DNA of 33,571 nucleotides from Rikenellaceae bacterium DTU002. Lineage in GTDB: Bacteria > Bacteroidota > Bacteroidia > Bacteroidales > UBA932. Below the pieces are notes generated by a model. That model saw nothing but the letters and a program-made list of their open reading frames with translations, did no database searches and had not been told where the DNA came from. The translations under genes and the position numbers were made by a program. Within the stretch, counting starts at the first letter, position 1. The number at the start of each line of letters is the position of its first letter. This document shows, piece after piece, positions 23,463 through 31,582 of the stretch. The stretch is taken from contig LFSY01000145.1 of the NCBI GenBank assembly GCA_001512865.1, positions 17,095 to 50,665 of the forward strand. Direction: 5' to 3'.

Positions 23463-23470
23463 TACTTTTG
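23463..23470 (+). promoter_or_regulatory. Predicted arginine-operon promoter -7 element TACTTTTG
   Basis: Matches TAnnTTTG; lies 7 nt before the small ORF at 23478 and 136 nt before the GNAT start codon. Confidence 0.55.
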
Positions 23471-23477
23471 TCCCGGA

Positions 23478-23522
23478 ATGAAAAAGACACTTTATATTCT
23501 CCGTGTCCGAGTAAGGGCTTAG
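23478..23522 (+). CDS. Putative arginine leader peptide MKKTLYILRVRVRA*
   Basis: ATG AAA AAG ACA CTT TAT ATT CTC CGT GTC CGA GTA AGG GCT TAG. Three Arg codons at alternating positions, just after a promoter-like element and upstream of a complete arginine operon. Confidence 0.5.
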   Translation: MKKTLYILRVRVRA

Positions 23523-23558
23523 GCTGCAGTGATCGCTCCTGCTCCCTGAATGCCCTAC
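23511..23558 (+). promoter_or_regulatory. Possible leader-RNA hairpin overlapping the end of the leader peptide ORF
   Basis: GTA(a)GGGC (23511-23518) can pair with GCCCTAC (23552-23558), 7 bp with one bulged A. Inner pairing possible: AGG/CCT and GCAG/CTGC. Confidence 0.4.
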
Positions 23559-23606
23559 ATCCGATTCCCATAAATTCCATCCCTTTTTCCTAAATTTTAA
23601 TTAACA

Positions 23607-24194
23607 ATGAATGTGCGCATTCTTGTTGCAAATGCCTCTCACACGGGCTTTGCAGAACGTATTTGTGAATTGATGTATATCTCTGCCCTGGAACGAGGAA
23701 CAGGCATAGCAAGACGGTCGCCGGAATACATCGTAGAAAAAATGATCAGCAACAAAGCCGTGATCGCCCTGGATGGCAGGAACCTGGTTGGTTTTTCATA
23801 TATTGAGACCTGGAGTCACAAATCCTTCGTGGCCAATTCGGGTCTCATAGTGGACCATGCTTACCGGCACCTTGGGATCGCCTCCCGGATTAAAAAAAGA
23901 ATTTTTCTGCTCTCACGCGAAATGTATCCAAAGGCAAAGATTTTCGGCATCACAACCGGTGCTGCGGTCATGAAGATCAATTCAAAACTCGGATACCGGC
24001 CTGTCCCTTTCTCCGAACTTACGCAGGACGAAGCTTTCTGGGAGGGATGCAGGGGTTGCCGGAATTATGACATCCTCATCAGAAACGAAAAGCGTATGTG
24101 TCTGTGCACCGGAATGTTATACGATCCGGAAGATCATCCAAAAAGAAAAATCGCAAACGGAATACATCAGAAAACTGAACATAACACACCATGA
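23607..24194 (+). CDS. GNAT-family acyltransferase, candidate N-acyl(acetyl/succinyl)glutamate synthase
   Basis: 195 aa; GNAT core LVGFSYIETWSHKSFVANSGLIVDHAYRHLGIASRIKKRIF; first gene of the arginine operon; C-terminal CX2CX13CXC cluster. Confidence 0.85.
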   Translation: MNVRILVANASHTGFAERICELMYISALERGTGIARRSPEYIVEKMISNKAVIALDGRNLVGFSYIETWSHKSFVANSGLIVDHAYRHLGIASRIKKRIFLLSREMYPKAKIFGITTGAAVMKINSKLGYRPVPFSELTQDEAFWEGCRGCRNYDILIRNEKRMCLCTGMLYDPEDHPKRKIANGIHQKTEHNTP

Positions 24195-25381
24195 AAACAA
24201 AAGTAGTATTGGCCTACAGTGGAGGACTGGACACCTCTTTCTGCATCCCCTACCTTACACGGGAGAAAGATATGGAAGTCCATACCCTGCTCGTTAACAC
24301 GGGAGGTTTTACACCGCAGGAAGTCACTGCCCTGTCTGAAAAAGCACTGAAGCTGGGGGCCGTAACACACAAGACGATCGATATCAGGGACGATTATTAT
24401 GCACGTTGCATTCGCTACCTGATCTTCGGCAATGTATTGAAGAACAACACATATCCCCTTTCTGTCAGCTCTGAAAGAGCCTTTCAGGCCATGACAGTGA
24501 CCCGTTACGCCAAGGAGATCGGTGCCGAAGCAATCGCGCACGGAAGTACCGGGGCGGGGAACGACCAGGTACGGTTTGATTATTTTGTACATGTACTCGC
24601 CCCGGAAATGCGCCTGACAGCTCCCATCAGGGAGCTGAAGATCAGCCGCAGGGAAGAGATAAACTATCTTTCAGGGCTGGGATTTGATTTTCCTGTGGAA
24701 AAGGCGAAGTATTCCATCAACCAGGGTCTCTGGGGCACCAGCATCGGAGGTGCAGAAACGCTTACATCTATGGGGGAACTGCCGGAAGAAGCTTACCCGG
24801 TACCTTGCACTAAAACAGGAACGGAAACCCTTGTTATCGGGTTTACTAAAGGAGAACCCAAAAGCCTGAACGGAAAAGATATGCCCCCCCTTGAACTGAT
24901 CAGCCGGCTACATCTTATGGCTGCTCCCTACGGGATTGGACGGGATGTGCACGTGGGGGATACCATTGTGGGACTCAAGGGGCGCGTAGGATTCGAAGCG
25001 GCAGCCCCGCTGATCCTGATCAAAGCCCATCACCTGCTGGAAAAGCACGTTCTGGGCAAATGGCAGTTGTACTGGAAGGAACAATTGTCAAACTGGTACG
25101 GAATGATGCTCCACGAGGCGCAATACCTGGACCCGGTTATGCGTAATATCGAAACGTTCCTGGAAAACACCCAGGAACGCGTCACCGGCGAAGTGGGTGT
25201 CAGACTGTACCCCCGCACTTTTACACTGACAGGGAGCAAGAGTCCCTACGACCTGATGGATGCCGCTTTCGGAGATTACGGAGAAGGCACCCCGGCTTTT
25301 TCCGGGTCAGATGTGGAAGGCTTTACCCGTATCATTTCACTCCCTGTAACCATCTGGCAAAGCCATGAAGACAAACAATAA
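24191..25381 (+). CDS. argG: Argininosuccinate synthase
   Basis: VVLAYSGGLDTSFCIPYL, AHGSTGAGNDQVRFD, INQGLWGTSIGGAETL. ATGA overlap with the GNAT stop. Confidence 0.96.
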   Translation: MKTKVVLAYSGGLDTSFCIPYLTREKDMEVHTLLVNTGGFTPQEVTALSEKALKLGAVTHKTIDIRDDYYARCIRYLIFGNVLKNNTYPLSVSSERAFQAMTVTRYAKEIGAEAIAHGSTGAGNDQVRFDYFVHVLAPEMRLTAPIRELKISRREEINYLSGLGFDFPVEKAKYSINQGLWGTSIGGAETLTSMGELPEEAYPVPCTKTGTETLVIGFTKGEPKSLNGKDMPPLELISRLHLMAAPYGIGRDVHVGDTIVGLKGRVGFEAAAPLILIKAHHLLEKHVLGKWQLYWKEQLSNWYGMMLHEAQYLDPVMRNIETFLENTQERVTGEVGVRLYPRTFTLTGSKSPYDLMDAAFGDYGEGTPAFSGSDVEGFTRIISLPVTIWQSHEDKQ

Positions 25382-26378
25382 AATATCTGTAGCCATAGCC
25401 GGAGGCGCAGGCTACACAGGCGGGGAACTGATACGCCTGTTACTGCTGCATCCGGGTGTCAGCCTGGTCAGCATTCTGAGCGATTCACAGGCAGGAAAAT
25501 CTGTGGCATCCATCCACAGGGACCTTGCCGGAGAATCTCTCCCGGTATTCGAAAAAGAACTGCCGGATGTAGATATCAGGGTCCTTTTTCTATGCCTGGG
25601 ACACGATCGTGCAAGGGCATTTCTTCAGGACAACAAACTGGACAAGGTACATCACATCATTGATCTGAGCCAGGATTTCAGGCATCAGGGGAACCGGGAG
25701 GCCTGCGGCCGCAAATTCGTATACGGATTACCCGAGTCCTGCCTGGATCCCGCGGAATATGCCGGCTCCCTTCACCTGGCAGGGAACGTAGCCAATCCGG
25801 GCTGTTTTGCAACAGCCATCGAACTGGCCTTACTGCCACTGGCCAGGGCCGGGTTACTGAAGAACGATGTTCATGTCCATGCCATTACCGGTGCCACAGG
25901 GGCAGGATCACGGCTTTCGGAAACATCTCACTTTCCTTACAGAAACAATAACCTGGCAGTGTATAAGGCATTCGGACACCAGCACATAAAAGAGATCCGT
26001 GAAACACTCTCGGGAGTTTCAGGAAACGGAATGCCTCCCCTTCATTTTATTCCGGTCAGGGGTGATTTTCCCAGGGGAATCCTTGCCAGTGCCTACACCT
26101 CCTGCAACATTGACAGGGAACAGGCAGTGGATCTGTACCGTGAGTATTACCGCTTGCATCCCTTTGTCCGCGTATCCGAAGAAGAGATCAGCATGAAAGA
26201 GGTGGTGAACACCAATAAATGTTCCATACACGTTCAAAAACACGGTCACATGATACACATTACTTCGGTCATTGACAACCTGCTGAAAGGGGCTTCGGGA
26301 ACGGCCGTTCAGAACATGAACCTGCTGACGGGAATGCCACAGACATCAGGGTTGCATCTGAAATCCATTGTATATTAA
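25365..26378 (+). CDS. argC: N-acyl-gamma-glutamyl-phosphate reductase
   Basis: AIAGGAGYTGGELIRLLLLHPG; catalytic Cys region GNVANPGCFATAIELALLPL; ITGATGAGSRLSETSHF. Confidence 0.95.
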   Translation: MKTNNKISVAIAGGAGYTGGELIRLLLLHPGVSLVSILSDSQAGKSVASIHRDLAGESLPVFEKELPDVDIRVLFLCLGHDRARAFLQDNKLDKVHHIIDLSQDFRHQGNREACGRKFVYGLPESCLDPAEYAGSLHLAGNVANPGCFATAIELALLPLARAGLLKNDVHVHAITGATGAGSRLSETSHFPYRNNNLAVYKAFGHQHIKEIRETLSGVSGNGMPPLHFIPVRGDFPRGILASAYTSCNIDREQAVDLYREYYRLHPFVRVSEEEISMKEVVNTNKCSIHVQKHGHMIHITSVIDNLLKGASGTAVQNMNLLTGMPQTSGLHLKSIVY

Positions 26379-26385
26379 AAACGCC

Positions 26386-27531
26386 ATGCACATCTACCCC
26401 GTTTACAAACTTTGGAACATCAATGCCTTAAAGGCAAAAGGATGTATCATCACCGACGATCAGGGAACAGAGTACCTGGATTTTTACGGAGGTCATGCGG
26501 TGATTTCGATCGGGCATTCGCATCCCGTATATGTGAAAGCCCTTTGTGACCAGTTACAGCACATAGGATTTTATTCCAACGCCATAGTCAATCCCCTCCA
26601 GGAAGCACTTGCCGGAGCGCTTGGACGGGTTTCCGGATATCCTGAATACAGCCTCTTCCTTTGTAACTCGGGGGCCGAGGCCAACGAAAATGCACTCAAA
26701 CTGGCCTCTTTCAGTACAGGGAGAAACCGGGTGCTGGCCTTCAGGAACGCTTTCCACGGAAGGACATCGGGAGCGGTCGCCCTTACCGACAACCCCTCCA
26801 TCCGAGCTCCTTTCAATCAGTGCCACCAGGCAGACTTCATCTGTCTGGATGATATTCAGGCTCTCGAAAGCGCTTTTACCCGGCACGATTATGCTGCTGT
26901 GATCATAGAGGGGATCCAGGGAGTCGGGGGTATCCGGGAAGCCTCGGCGGTATTTCTTGCCACCCTGAGGGAACTGTGCACGCGTCACCATACCGTACTG
27001 ATAATGGACGAGATCCAGTCCGGATACGGACGGACCGGAAAATTCTTTGCACACCAGCATGCAGGGATCCAGGCCGACATCATCACCATGGCCAAGGGCA
27101 TGGGCAACGGTTTCCCGATTGGCGGCTTACTGATATCTCCCCATATTAAAGCCGTTCCGGGACAATTGGGCACCACGTTTGGAGGGAACCATCTGGCATG
27201 CGCTGCGGCCCTTGCCGTGTTACAGGTCATGCAGGAAGAGAGGCTGATGGACAACGCACGCGAAATAGGTTCCTACATGATCGGGGCGTTGCAGACAATA
27301 ACCGCCGGTGCGGCACAAATAAGGGGTCGTGGCCTGATGATAGGAATCGAAACAGATCCCGAAATGCTTAAGGACCGGAATCTGAGAGAAGACCTGCTGT
27401 GGAAAGGAAAAATTTTCACGGGGGCATCGGGACCCGGCATACTCAGGCTGCTACCACCGTTATGTATAACAAAAGAACAAGCCGACAAACTTTTAACATT
27501 TCTGGAACTATGGTACACTTCACATCCGTAA
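26386..27531 (+). CDS. argD: Acyl-ornithine aminotransferase (class III PLP aminotransferase)
   Basis: FYGGHAVISIGHSHPVYVKAL, NSGAEANENALKLA, FHGRTSGAVALT, LIMDEIQSGYGRTGKFFAHQHAGIQADIITMAKGMGNGFPIGGLL. Confidence 0.95.
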   Translation: MHIYPVYKLWNINALKAKGCIITDDQGTEYLDFYGGHAVISIGHSHPVYVKALCDQLQHIGFYSNAIVNPLQEALAGALGRVSGYPEYSLFLCNSGAEANENALKLASFSTGRNRVLAFRNAFHGRTSGAVALTDNPSIRAPFNQCHQADFICLDDIQALESAFTRHDYAAVIIEGIQGVGGIREASAVFLATLRELCTRHHTVLIMDEIQSGYGRTGKFFAHQHAGIQADIITMAKGMGNGFPIGGLLISPHIKAVPGQLGTTFGGNHLACAAALAVLQVMQEERLMDNAREIGSYMIGALQTITAGAAQIRGRGLMIGIETDPEMLKDRNLREDLLWKGKIFTGASGPGILRLLPPLCITKEQADKLLTFLELWYTSHP

Positions 27532-28481
27532 AAGACGCAGGCTCGCTGGACAAAGCCGTTGAGGAAGCCTTTTGGATCAAAAAGAACAGATTTGCTGACA
27601 GCGATCTGGGTAAGAACCGTACTGCCCTGCTGATCTTCTTCAATTCCAGTCTCCGGACCCGGCTGAGTACCCAGAAAGCGGCAGAAAATCTGGGTATGAA
27701 AGTCATTGTGCTGGATGTACAGCAGGGAGCCTGGAACCTGGAGACCAGGAAAGGCGTGATCATGGACGGGGACAAACCGGAACACCTGCTGGAGGCCATT
27801 CCCGTAATGGGATGTTATGCCGATATCATAGGTGTCCGTTCCTTTGCCCGTTTTGAAAACAAGGAAGATGATTACCAGGAGGTCATTCTGAACCAGTTCA
27901 TCCGGTATGCGGGAAAACCCGTTATCAGCCTGGAAGCCGCCACACGTCATCCGCTCCAGAGTTTTGCCGACCATATTACCATCGAAGAGTTCAAAACCAG
28001 GGAAAAACCCCGGATCGTTCTTACGTGGGCTCCTCATCCACGGGCGCTACCACAGGCTGTTCCCAACTCCTTTGCCGAATGGATGATTGCTGCCGGATAT
28101 CATGTAACCATAACACATCCAAAGGGTTATGAGCTGGATGAGCCATTTACCCGGGGCGCAGAGATCGTCTATGATCAGAAGGAAGCCTTTCGGGGGGCCG
28201 ATTTCATCTATGCCAAGAACTGGGCGGCATTCCGGGATCCGGTCTATGGAAAAATATTGAACACAGACCGTTCCTGGATGGTGGACAACAATAAAATGCG
28301 GCTGACCGACAATGCCTTTTTCATGCATTGCCTGCCTGTGAGGCGCAACATGATCGTCAGCGATGAAGTACTCGACGGGCCAAGGTCTCTTGTCATACCC
28401 CAGGCCGCCAACCGTGAGATCGCCGCCCAGGTGGTGATCAAAAGGATCCTGAATGAGATTTCTAAAACGGAAAGACCATGA
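27510..28481 (+). CDS. argF': N-succinylornithine carbamoyltransferase
   Basis: FFNSSLRTRLSTQKAAENLGM (carbamoyl-phosphate site), KGVIMDGDKPEHLLEAIPVMGCYADIIGVRSFARFENK, FMHCLPVRRNMIVSDEVL. As recalled, closely resembles the Bacteroides fragilis SOTCase, including Pro at position 90 counted from this start. Confidence 0.94.
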   Translation: MVHFTSVKDAGSLDKAVEEAFWIKKNRFADSDLGKNRTALLIFFNSSLRTRLSTQKAAENLGMKVIVLDVQQGAWNLETRKGVIMDGDKPEHLLEAIPVMGCYADIIGVRSFARFENKEDDYQEVILNQFIRYAGKPVISLEAATRHPLQSFADHITIEEFKTREKPRIVLTWAPHPRALPQAVPNSFAEWMIAAGYHVTITHPKGYELDEPFTRGAEIVYDQKEAFRGADFIYAKNWAAFRDPVYGKILNTDRSWMVDNNKMRLTDNAFFMHCLPVRRNMIVSDEVLDGPRSLVIPQAANREIAAQVVIKRILNEISKTERP

Positions 28482-29218
28482 GACTGCAGATTTTCAAGAT
28501 CGGAGGGAATGTTATTGACTCCCCCGTTGTGCTTAACGCCTTTTTAGACACATTCTGCTCCTGCCGGGAACGGAAGATCCTGGTGCACGGTGGAGGTAAA
28601 CTGGCCGGTGAACTGGCCGGTGAACTGGGTGTACCCGTTCATATGCACCAGGGCCGCAGGATCACCGATGCTCCCACACTGCGCATTGCCGTAATGGTAT
28701 ATGCCGGATGGATCAACAAATCACTGGTCGCTGCCCTTTCTGCCCGGGGATGCCGCGCCGTGGGCCTGAGCGGTGCTGACGGCTGTTCGGTCATTACCCG
28801 CAAAAGAGATCCGGAGCCTCTGGATTTCGGATTTGTGGGAGACATTACCCAAAGCAGTGTGGATGTCCTCTTCACGGAACGCCTGATGGAAGACGGCCTG
28901 GTACCGGTATTCTCCCCCATCACGTGCGATCCCTCGGGACAACTGCTCAACACGAATGCCGATACCATAGCCTCGGCTCTGTCTATGGCTTTTAAAACAA
29001 AGTATGCTGTAAGTTTGCGTTACGTATTCGACAAGGAAGGCGTCTGCTGCCCCGGTTCGGATGAACCCCTGCCGCTGCTGAGCAGGGCACAGTACGAGAA
29101 ACTGTGCGGTGAAGGAGTGGTTACCGGAGGTATGATCCCAAAAATTGAGAACGCCCTGAAAGCGCTCTCCATGGGCATTGAAGAAGTATATATTGGCAAA
29201 ACATGCATTCAGCTATGA
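28478..29218 (+). CDS. argB: N-acyl(acetyl/succinyl)glutamate kinase
   Basis: QIFKIGGNVID, KILVHGGGKLAGELAGELGV, AVGLSGADGCSVIT, LNTNADTIASALSMAF, GMIPKIENALKALSMGIEEVYIG. Confidence 0.94.
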   Translation: MRLQIFKIGGNVIDSPVVLNAFLDTFCSCRERKILVHGGGKLAGELAGELGVPVHMHQGRRITDAPTLRIAVMVYAGWINKSLVAALSARGCRAVGLSGADGCSVITRKRDPEPLDFGFVGDITQSSVDVLFTERLMEDGLVPVFSPITCDPSGQLLNTNADTIASALSMAFKTKYAVSLRYVFDKEGVCCPGSDEPLPLLSRAQYEKLCGEGVVTGGMIPKIENALKALSMGIEEVYIGKTCIQL

Positions 29219-30273
29219 ACGAAGAAATTACAGATCTGCTATGCCGGCTGGTATCAACCCCTTCGCTTTCCGGCAGAGAAGACAAGACAGCGGCCCTGCT
29301 GGCAGCATACCTGAACGGCAAACCCGATATCCTGGCCGAACGCATGGGCAACAATGTGATAGCAAAAAAAAGATCTTACGCCCCCGGACGTCCCACCGTA
29401 CTGCTTTGTTCACATCATGATACGGTGGCCCCGGCTGCAGGCTATACCAGGGACCCGTTTCTGCCCGTTCTGGAGAAAGACCCTGAGGGTAACACCCGTC
29501 TGTACGGACTCGGCAGCAACGACGCCGGAGGTGCGGTGGTGTCAATGGTACAGACTTTCTGCGATCCGGAAGATCTGCCGTTCAATCTTCTGCTCATACT
29601 TGCCGCAGGGGAGGAAAATTCAGCCCCGGAAGGAATCGCCTCCGTGCTGCCCCGTTTCCCCGGGATCAGTTGTGCCCTGGTAGGTGAACCTACCGGGCTG
29701 CAGGCAGCTTTGGGTGAAAAAGGGCTGCTGGTACTGGACGGATATACTACGGGCCGAGCCGGTCATGCCGCCCGGAACGACGGTGTCAACGCCCTGTATG
29801 CAGCCCTGGATGACATTTCGGTCCTGAGAAACTTCCGGTTTGAAAAAACATCAGAGGTCCTGGGGAATGTACACCTGCAGGTGACCCAGATCCGCTCCGG
29901 GGAACAACACAACGTCATCCCTGCATCATGTCATTACGTAGTAGACATCCGCACGACCGATGCGTATACGAACCATCAGATAACAGACATCCTGGGCCAA
30001 GCCGTATCCGGGAGGCTGGTTGCGCGCAACATGGCCAATAAAGCCTCGGTCACCCCAAAAGGTCATCCGCTGCGCGATGCCGTCCTGAAGGCAGGCCTGC
30101 CGGCGTACATATCCCCCACCACCTCGGACTGGATGCGGCTGCCCTGCCCTGCAGTTAAACTAGGTCCCGGGGATTCTCTCAGATCACACGCTCCCGATGA
30201 ATATATTTATCTTTCTGAACTGCAACAGGGAGTGGATGTGTATAAAAAAGTGCTCTCGTTGCTTAATTTGTAA
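29215..30273 (+). CDS. argE: M20-family N-acyl-ornithine/citrulline deacylase (ArgE-like)
   Basis: VLLCSHHDTVAPAAGYTRDPF, GLGSNDAGGAVVSMVQ, LAAGEENSAPEGI, GEPTGLQAALGEKG. ATGA overlap with argB. Confidence 0.9.
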   Translation: MNEEITDLLCRLVSTPSLSGREDKTAALLAAYLNGKPDILAERMGNNVIAKKRSYAPGRPTVLLCSHHDTVAPAAGYTRDPFLPVLEKDPEGNTRLYGLGSNDAGGAVVSMVQTFCDPEDLPFNLLLILAAGEENSAPEGIASVLPRFPGISCALVGEPTGLQAALGEKGLLVLDGYTTGRAGHAARNDGVNALYAALDDISVLRNFRFEKTSEVLGNVHLQVTQIRSGEQHNVIPASCHYVVDIRTTDAYTNHQITDILGQAVSGRLVARNMANKASVTPKGHPLRDAVLKAGLPAYISPTTSDWMRLPCPAVKLGPGDSLRSHAPDEYIYLSELQQGVDVYKKVLSLLNL

Positions 30274-30277
30274 AATA

Positions 30278-31582
30278 ATGGAAACACTTTGGAACAAAGG
30301 AATAGAAACACCCCGTGAAGTGACCCGGTTCACTGTCGGAAACGATCCCTTGTGGGACCTGCGACTGGCGCCCTACGATGTACAGGGATCCGTAGCCCAT
30401 GTAAAAATGCTGGGAAAGACCGGATTGCTGTCACCCGAGGAAACCGGTCTTCTTGTAACAGGCCTGGAGACGGTGCTGCAAAAGATCAGACGGGGTGAAC
30501 TGGTCATTGGCCAGGGTGCCGAGGATATCCATTCGCTGGTGGAACTGGAACTATCTCGCGATCTGGGTGATCTGGGCAAAAAGATCCATGCCGGACGCTC
30601 CCGTAACGACCAGGTAATGACTGACATTCACCTGTACCTGAAAGATGTGTGCAAAGATATGGCACGTCAGACAGAGACGTTGTTCGATTGCCTGCTGGAG
30701 CAAAGTGAACGGTATAAAGAGGTCCTGATGCCCGGGTACACCCATGAACGGCCGGCTATGCCCTCCTCGTTCGGATTATGGATGGGAGCCTATGCAGAGA
30801 TCCTGACAGACGACATATACCAGCTGACGGCTGCCTTCCTGCATTGTGATCAGAATCCGCTCGGATCAGCCGCCGGTTACGGGAATTCTTTCCCCCTGGA
30901 CCGGGAGGAAACCACCCGCCTGATGGGTTTCGGCACCCTGAAATACAACAGCATTGCCGCACAGATGAGCCGGGGAAGAACCGAAAGGTCTCTGGCTTTT
31001 GCCATGGCCTCGGTAGCCGGTACGCTTAACAAGCTGGCAGCCGATTGCTGTCTTTTCTCGGGGCCAGATTACGGATTCATGGATTTTCCCGAATCCCTGA
31101 CCACCGGCAGCAGCATCATGCCTCATAAAAAGAATCCCGATGTATGGGAGCTTGTCAGGGCACGCTGCAATGTGATTGAAGGATTGCCCAACCAGATCAC
31201 ACTTGTGTGTACCAACCTGACACACGGGTATCACCGGGATTTCCAGATGATCAAAGACTTGCTTTTCCCTGCCATTGATTCGCTTTTTGAATGTCTGGGG
31301 ATGACCGTTCTCATGATCTCGCAAATGAGGGTCAACCAGGCCATCTTTGAAGACGAGCGGTACGATTTGCTGTTTACGGTGGAATCGGTGAACCGTCTTG
31401 TTCTGGAAGGAGTCCCTTTCAGGGATGCCTATCGACGGGTTGCCGGATCGCTGCGGGACGGTTCCTATAAAGTACAAAAAAACATCAAACATACCCATAC
31501 GGGCAGTATTGGCGACCCGGCCAATGAAAAGATCCGGGAAAAAATGGAACAGGCCCTTTCCCGGATACTGAATAAAGACTGA
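30278..31582 (+). CDS. argH: Argininosuccinate lyase
   Basis: GAEDIHSLVELEL, KKIHAGRSRNDQVMTDIHLYLK, LMPGYTHERPAMPSSFG, signature TTGSSIMPHKKNPDVWELVRARCN. ATG at 30278 chosen over the ORF start at 30197. Confidence 0.95.
   Translation: METLWNKGIETPREVTRFTVGNDPLWDLRLAPYDVQGSVAHVKMLGKTGLLSPEETGLLVTGLETVLQKIRRGELVIGQGAEDIHSLVELELSRDLGDLGKKIHAGRSRNDQVMTDIHLYLKDVCKDMARQTETLFDCLLEQSERYKEVLMPGYTHERPAMPSSFGLWMGAYAEILTDDIYQLTAAFLHCDQNPLGSAAGYGNSFPLDREETTRLMGFGTLKYNSIAAQMSRGRTERSLAFAMASVAGTLNKLAADCCLFSGPDYGFMDFPESLTTGSSIMPHKKNPDVWELVRARCNVIEGLPNQITLVCTNLTHGYHRDFQMIKDLLFPAIDSLFECLGMTVLMISQMRVNQAIFEDERYDLLFTVESVNRLVLEGVPFRDAYRRVAGSLRDGSYKVQKNIKHTHTGSIGDPANEKIREKMEQALSRILNKD

Follow-up and report, generated by a model that had tools for sequence, protein, structure and literature searches.

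A conserved arginine-codon leader ORF, probably a ribosome-mediated attenuator, precedes the arginine operon in a Bacteroidales family without detectable ArgR

The window analyzed here is a 33,571-nucleotide stretch of contig LFSY01000145.1 from Rikenellaceae bacterium DTU002. It carries an eight-gene arginine operon in the order GNAT, argG, argC, argD, N-acyl-ornithine carbamoyltransferase, argB, M20 deacylase and argH, an eight-gene arginine operon having been read earlier from the letters alone and its genes being borne out here by Pfam and NCBIfam. The genes from argG to argH overlap or nearly overlap. Together with the region just upstream, the locus contains the following features.

23463..23470, + strand: TAnnTTTG-type -7 promoter box, TACTTTTG (sequence and published consensus)
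23478..23522, + strand: leader peptide ORF, MKKTLYILRVRVRA and stop (conserved in genus and family)
23502..23516, + strand: putative control-codon cluster, Arg9 CGT, Val10 GTC, Arg11 CGA, Val12 GTA, Arg13 AGG (CGA enrichment; RTCCGA invariant in genus)
23515..23555, + strand: predicted hairpin, GGGCTTAGGCTGCAG...CTGCTCCCTGAATGCCC (folding, RNAalifold, family folding profile)
23556..23606, + strand: C-rich, G-poor spacer, a candidate Rho-loading stretch (suggested by composition)
23607..24194, + strand: GNAT acyltransferase, first gene of the operon (weak Pfam GNAT match; no NCBIfam name; adjacency to argG conserved)
24191..31582, + strand: argG, argC, argD, N-acetylornithine carbamoyltransferase-like gene, argB, M20 deacylase (argE-like), argH (Pfam, NCBIfam)

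The leader ORF has 14 codons (ATG AAA AAG ACA CTT TAT ATT CTC CGT GTC CGA GTA AGG GCT TAG), three of which specify arginine: codon 9 (CGT, 23502-23504), codon 11 (CGA, 23508-23510) and codon 13 (AGG, 23514-23516). Its ATG at 23478 stands 7 nt past the box, and its stop lies 84 nt before the GNAT ATG at 23607. The coordinates given in the sequence-only reading were all correct on re-checking. The box fits the Bacteroidota sigma-A consensus TAnnTTTG, which PMC9723704 places at -12 to -5. Hence, transcription is predicted to start within a few bases of the ATG, at about 23475-23477, and the 5′ UTR of the leader mRNA would be a few nucleotides at most. Such a near-leaderless start would be unusual, since 5′ UTRs shorter than 10 nt make up only ~3.7% of those in Bacteroides thetaiotaomicron (PMC7366714). 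No Rfam family, T-box or other cis-regulatory RNA, was matched in the window at the gathering score. A second ATCCGA is found in the untranslated spacer of the window (23558-23564, 81 nt past the leader ATG), and similar TCCG copies are seen in most relatives of the genus.

Nine relatives of the same genus keep a 14-codon ORF at the same position, with the peptides MNTSLQILRVRVRA (twice), MNKILQILRIRRRA (twice), MKKILQILRIRRRA, MNKILQILRIRCRA, MKNGKNILRVRLWA, MKTSFHILRIRQRA and MNKRSHILRIRSRA. The N-terminal half of these peptides drifts and codon 12 is free. Codons 9 (CGT) and 11 (CGA) are invariant, as is RTCCGA; codon 13 is AGG or CGG, hence arginine, save for one TGG (Trp); and Leu8 and Ala14 change only synonymously. 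Beyond the genus, we find about 70 homologous leaders before the same GNAT-arg operon, spread over some 16 genera of the Bacteroidales family to which the window belongs. This family set draws on 60 further upstream regions from a search of 399 genomes. Leaders were called where a box resembling a promoter stood 4-10 nt ahead of an ATG and the ORF held at least two Arg codons, the core motif not being required. Seventy-one loci carry a leader under this rule, subject to two corrections: L056 belongs to another lineage (a Phaeodactylibacter-labelled MAG), and the true frame of L124 begins farther down. L089, L116 and the corrected frame of L124 were added by hand; L002 and L007 had escaped the rule. 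The distance from box to ATG is 5-9 nt in the 71 leaders, box and distance being themselves part of the search rule. Typical family peptides are MKNSSHHINSTFFHRHVRRCA, MKKVCTYPSIAIRRVRR, MNRDFFIFSFDGATFRVRR and MKTGVKIVSTSQSRIRR, with a core (H/R)(V/I)R(R) near the C-terminus that is encoded by almost invariant GTC-CGA nucleotides; some longer leaders contain a second copy of the core, as in MKKGNHIYLSNNHWRVRRQCGVVVIVRR. A second in-frame GTCCGA occurs within a longer leader in other genera.

How far is the reading frame itself conserved? Of the 67 loci that have GTC/ATC-CGA, 66 keep it in frame with the ATG. Nine different spacings from ATG to core are seen, ranging from 24 to 81 nt, and despite many indels all are multiples of three. 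An ORF with at least three Arg among its last 13 residues is present at 68 of 86 family loci; the reverse strand gives 8, and dinucleotide shuffles give 6.9. Frame conservation and shuffles thus rule out a chance ORF, and the earlier caveat that three Arg codons in 14 could arise by chance is outweighed. The key test proposed at that time, a conserved short ORF with clustered Arg codons in relatives, comes out positive in the genus and across the ~16 family genera. On this comparative evidence, the leader ORF is real and under selection, and the arginine codons are what is selected. One could instead suppose that GUCCGACGA serves as a binding site for a protein or an RNA, with the ORF incidental, given that RTCCGA is near-invariant in nucleotides across the family and lies in a predicted hairpin loop in some genera. 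We regard this as very improbable: the motif stays in frame through many indels, the variation within the genus is synonymous at Leu8 and Ala14 and alternates between AGG and CGG at codon 13, and Arg-rich leaders of other families do without GTCCGA.

These other families were reached in a wider survey of 80 further GNAT upstream regions, in which at least four Arg were required among the last 13 residues of an ORF. Arg-rich leader ORFs precede GNAT in f48 (12/12), f30 (8/15), f31 (4/5), f27 (3/5) and f34 (3/5), with shuffle means of 0.03 per group or less. The reverse-strand control gave 2 in f48 and none in f30, f31, f27 or f34. Arg-rich ORFs before GNAT are at background level in f29, f35, f36 and a mixed set of 22. 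The sequences of these leaders are unlike that of the window, yet the Arg runs persist, so that conservation holds in kind outside the family as well. Leaders of f48 mostly end CCG CGG CGG CGG TAA or nearly so; with their CGG runs, they retain arginine but encode it by another codon. In f30, three leaders end CGT CGC CGC CCG TAA GGG or similarly, and by eye CGCCC-GTAA-GGG can pair across the stop codon there. Two single loci may be recorded alongside: L047 (a Taibaiella-labelled MAG), whose leader ends ...SFQVRR* with GTCCGACGT, and L056, whose leader ends ...ANRRRARRRP* with CGCCC-TTAG-GGGCG across the stop codon.

Codon choice in the leaders is strongly skewed. CGA is the rarest Arg codon in the genes of the window (2.6% of 571 Arg codons) and accounts for ~10% of Arg codons in the family loci; in the leaders it makes up 121 of 244 Arg codons, and 74 of 87 where the codon follows Val or Ile. 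The core Arg codon is nearly always CGA. In the complete relative G023, the tRNA-Arg anticodons are ACG, CCG, TCT and CCT, with none TCG, so CGA can be read only by tRNA-Arg(ACG/ICG) through inosine-A wobble. In the his leader of Salmonella, for each partner codon except AGG, de-attenuation was strongest when the other Arg codon of the pair was CGA (PMC4046918). In the speF leader orf34, rare and frequent Arg codons performed alike (PMC6386406), which suggests that codon rarity here may tune the response instead of creating it.

The Val codon ahead of CGA is fixed as GTC, and tRNA-Arg supply alone does not explain this. It is here that a ligand-dependent arrest peptide comes into consideration, in which a chain ending (H/R)(V/I)R(R) would stall the ribosome on free arginine or ornithine, not on tRNA shortage, much like fungal AAP or SpeFL. 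Val or Ile ahead of the core Arg is conserved along with the fixed GTC, and the speF ORF34 core HIRRT*HIMM (PMC6386406) resembles HVRR. Nonetheless, we consider such a peptide unlikely, since the peptides differ greatly between families while the Arg runs stay, a rare codon is selected that a ligand-sensing peptide would not need, and the genus peptides, only 14 residues long and with 9 codons ahead of the core, are short for a tunnel sensor.

The hairpin is placed such that translation of the leader would bear directly on it. Its 5′ arm starts in codon 13, where the last Arg is encoded, and takes in the stop of the leader ORF. The 50-nt stretch 23511-23560 folds at -21.8 kcal/mol (z -3.60), and RNAalifold on 10 genus sequences returns a 14-pair consensus hairpin, with a few compensatory changes and a covariation term that is very small. 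Across 60 distinct family leaders, excess folding peaks directly past the last Arg codon (mean z -1.3), as compared with a mean z of about 0 from -60 to -150 nt. No intrinsic terminator was found in the window between 23320 and 23700, and the tail that follows the hairpin, CCTACATCC, has no U-tract. T-rich tails past the hairpin do occur in some other genera (for example, at L017, L023 and L078). Only one conserved hairpin emerged from the 10-sequence alignment, and no second, mutually exclusive hairpin was found in the genus of the window; at L088, GTGCCT is able, by eye, to pair either way. The 50 nt before the GNAT start contain 14 C and 1 G, a composition that would suit Rho. Between leader and GNAT, L024, L118, L119, L120, L122 and L124 (genera g23 and g7) share a conserved stretch like TTGCAATTGACAATCCAGGTTTGTCTTGCCGTTAGG, which may form GACAA...TTTGTC.

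Short leader genes lying 11-14 bp before Bacteroidetes genes have been proposed as a translation aid (PMC4833913), and one might imagine a leader that senses nothing and, through reinitiation, simply helps the following gene to be translated. However, this leader ends 84 nt before GNAT, and those of relatives 57-200 nt before it, and reinitiation leaves the conservation of Arg and CGA without explanation; we give it scarcely any credence, the least of the alternatives weighed here.

Among amino-acid operons, those for arginine are commonly described as the exception, being controlled by ArgR. In the family of the window, the ArgR C-terminal domain PF02863 is absent from all 37 genomes searched, including that of the window itself (84% complete), with control genomes positive. 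An ArgR-controlled arginine operon is therefore rejected, as the ArgR it requires is missing. This absence lends support to the earlier suggestion that the leader substitutes for ArgR. ArgR is found in 12 of 24 other Bacteroidales families. There, argR usually lies just upstream of GNAT, and in several families it ends just before GNAT, an arrangement that the sequence-only reading had mentioned for Bacteroides arginine clusters. Among 300 genomes sampled from the phylum, 126 have GNAT and 111 have ArgR, with an overlap of 3 by eye, one of them a weak partial match. One caveat comes from within the family: genera g2, g3, g6, g10, g25 and most of g21 have GNAT with no detectable leader and also no ArgR, which counts against an attenuator.

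In 17 family genomes without GNAT, the search for argG gave no convincing match, only weak ones inside other long frames; relocation of the leader to argG in such genomes is accordingly moot. G006 and G007, members of the genus of the window that are 82-86% complete, have neither GNAT nor argG; the genus may include lineages that no longer make arginine, or the genes may lie on missing contigs. In G445, G592 and G628 (family f47), the GNAT homologue sits inside an open frame of ~590-630 aa and may be fused to another protein. One in-frame TAG interrupts the GNAT matches of several genomes in family f62 (G635, G675, G687, G707), possibly through upstream misalignment or because TAG is read as sense. 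A wider regulon was also considered and dropped. In 20 genomes, the pattern TTTG-ATG-YRYRTCCGA revealed no obvious second leader, and matches beyond the arg locus were at background level.

Taken together, our comparisons support the view that the element is likely a ribosome-mediated attenuator of the arginine operon that senses charged tRNA-Arg, the supports being the conserved ORF, its Arg and CGA codons, the position of the hairpin and the absence of ArgR. That the ribosome stalls, which way the operon responds and how its output is set are what we infer, along the following lines. Transcription would begin almost at the leader ATG, and a ribosome would translate the 14-codon leader. With arginyl-tRNA plentiful, the ribosome would pass the Arg codons, end at TAG and depart, whereupon the hairpin at 23515-23555 would form and shut-off before GNAT be favored. 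With arginyl-tRNA scarce, above all the tRNA-Arg(ICG) that reads CGA, the ribosome would wait at CGA11. By general ribosome geometry, a ribosome whose A site holds CGA11 would reach to about 23520-23522, so that its leading edge would hide about 23515-23522, eight bases at the start of the 5′ arm; the hairpin would be blocked and the operon read. The output would be premature termination. Where a genus has a T-run, this may be intrinsic; in the genus of the window, where no U-tract follows the hairpin, our guess is that it is probably Rho-dependent.

Comparative surveys of attenuators in many phyla have reportedly been made by Lyubetsky, Seliverstov and others. Like trpL, hisL, leuL, thrL and ilv, the present element has a short ORF between the promoter and the first gene of a biosynthetic operon, clustered and conserved codons for the end product, and a hairpin within reach of the ribosome. 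Unlike them, its cognate amino acid is arginine, its ATG all but coincides with the predicted start of transcription, a rare codon (CGA) is selected and, in the genus of the window, neither a U-tract terminator nor a second hairpin was found. Because the window lacks an intrinsic terminator, the element does not qualify as a trp-type attenuator of the classical kind.

Arginine-sensing uORFs are known from speF (PMC6386406) and rbf (PMC13009471). Salmonella speF orf34/SpeFL likewise is a uORF with an Arg codon cluster, consecutive in its case; ribosome pausing without arginine alters mRNA fate there, Lys substitution abolishes the response, and Rho is involved. It differs in having 34 codons with the sensing Arg at 12-13, in responding to ornithine too, in controlling ornithine decarboxylase and not arginine synthesis, and in belonging to another phylum (PMC6386406). 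In Staphylococcus aureus, rare Arg codons of the rbfL leader also sense arginine shortage, but pausing blocks the ribosome-binding site and lowers a biofilm regulator, opposite in sign to our proposal (PMC13009471). Within the same phylum, the passage of PMC9723704 on Flavobacterium psychrophilum notes leader-peptide attenuation of amino-acid operons as a general mechanism and, in that passage, names no arginine operon. In the open-access literature, to which our search was confined, we found no leader peptide described for an arginine biosynthetic operon in Bacteroidota; novelty is provisional.

With slightly more doubt than belief, we extend the proposal to ArgR-less Bacteroidota at large, where Arg leaders may be phylum-wide and repeatedly remodelled. 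The form seen here would then combine a near-leaderless mRNA, a fixed GUC-CGA pair tuned for slow decoding by an inosine tRNA, and output through Rho or mRNA decay in place of an intrinsic terminator. Many Bacteroidota thus appear to do without ArgR and to rely on a translated sensor in its place. The leader illustrates selection of one rare codon as part of a sensor, gives a clean prediction for culturable relatives, and provides a marker at the sequence level by which a control system otherwise invisible in metagenomes could be recognized.
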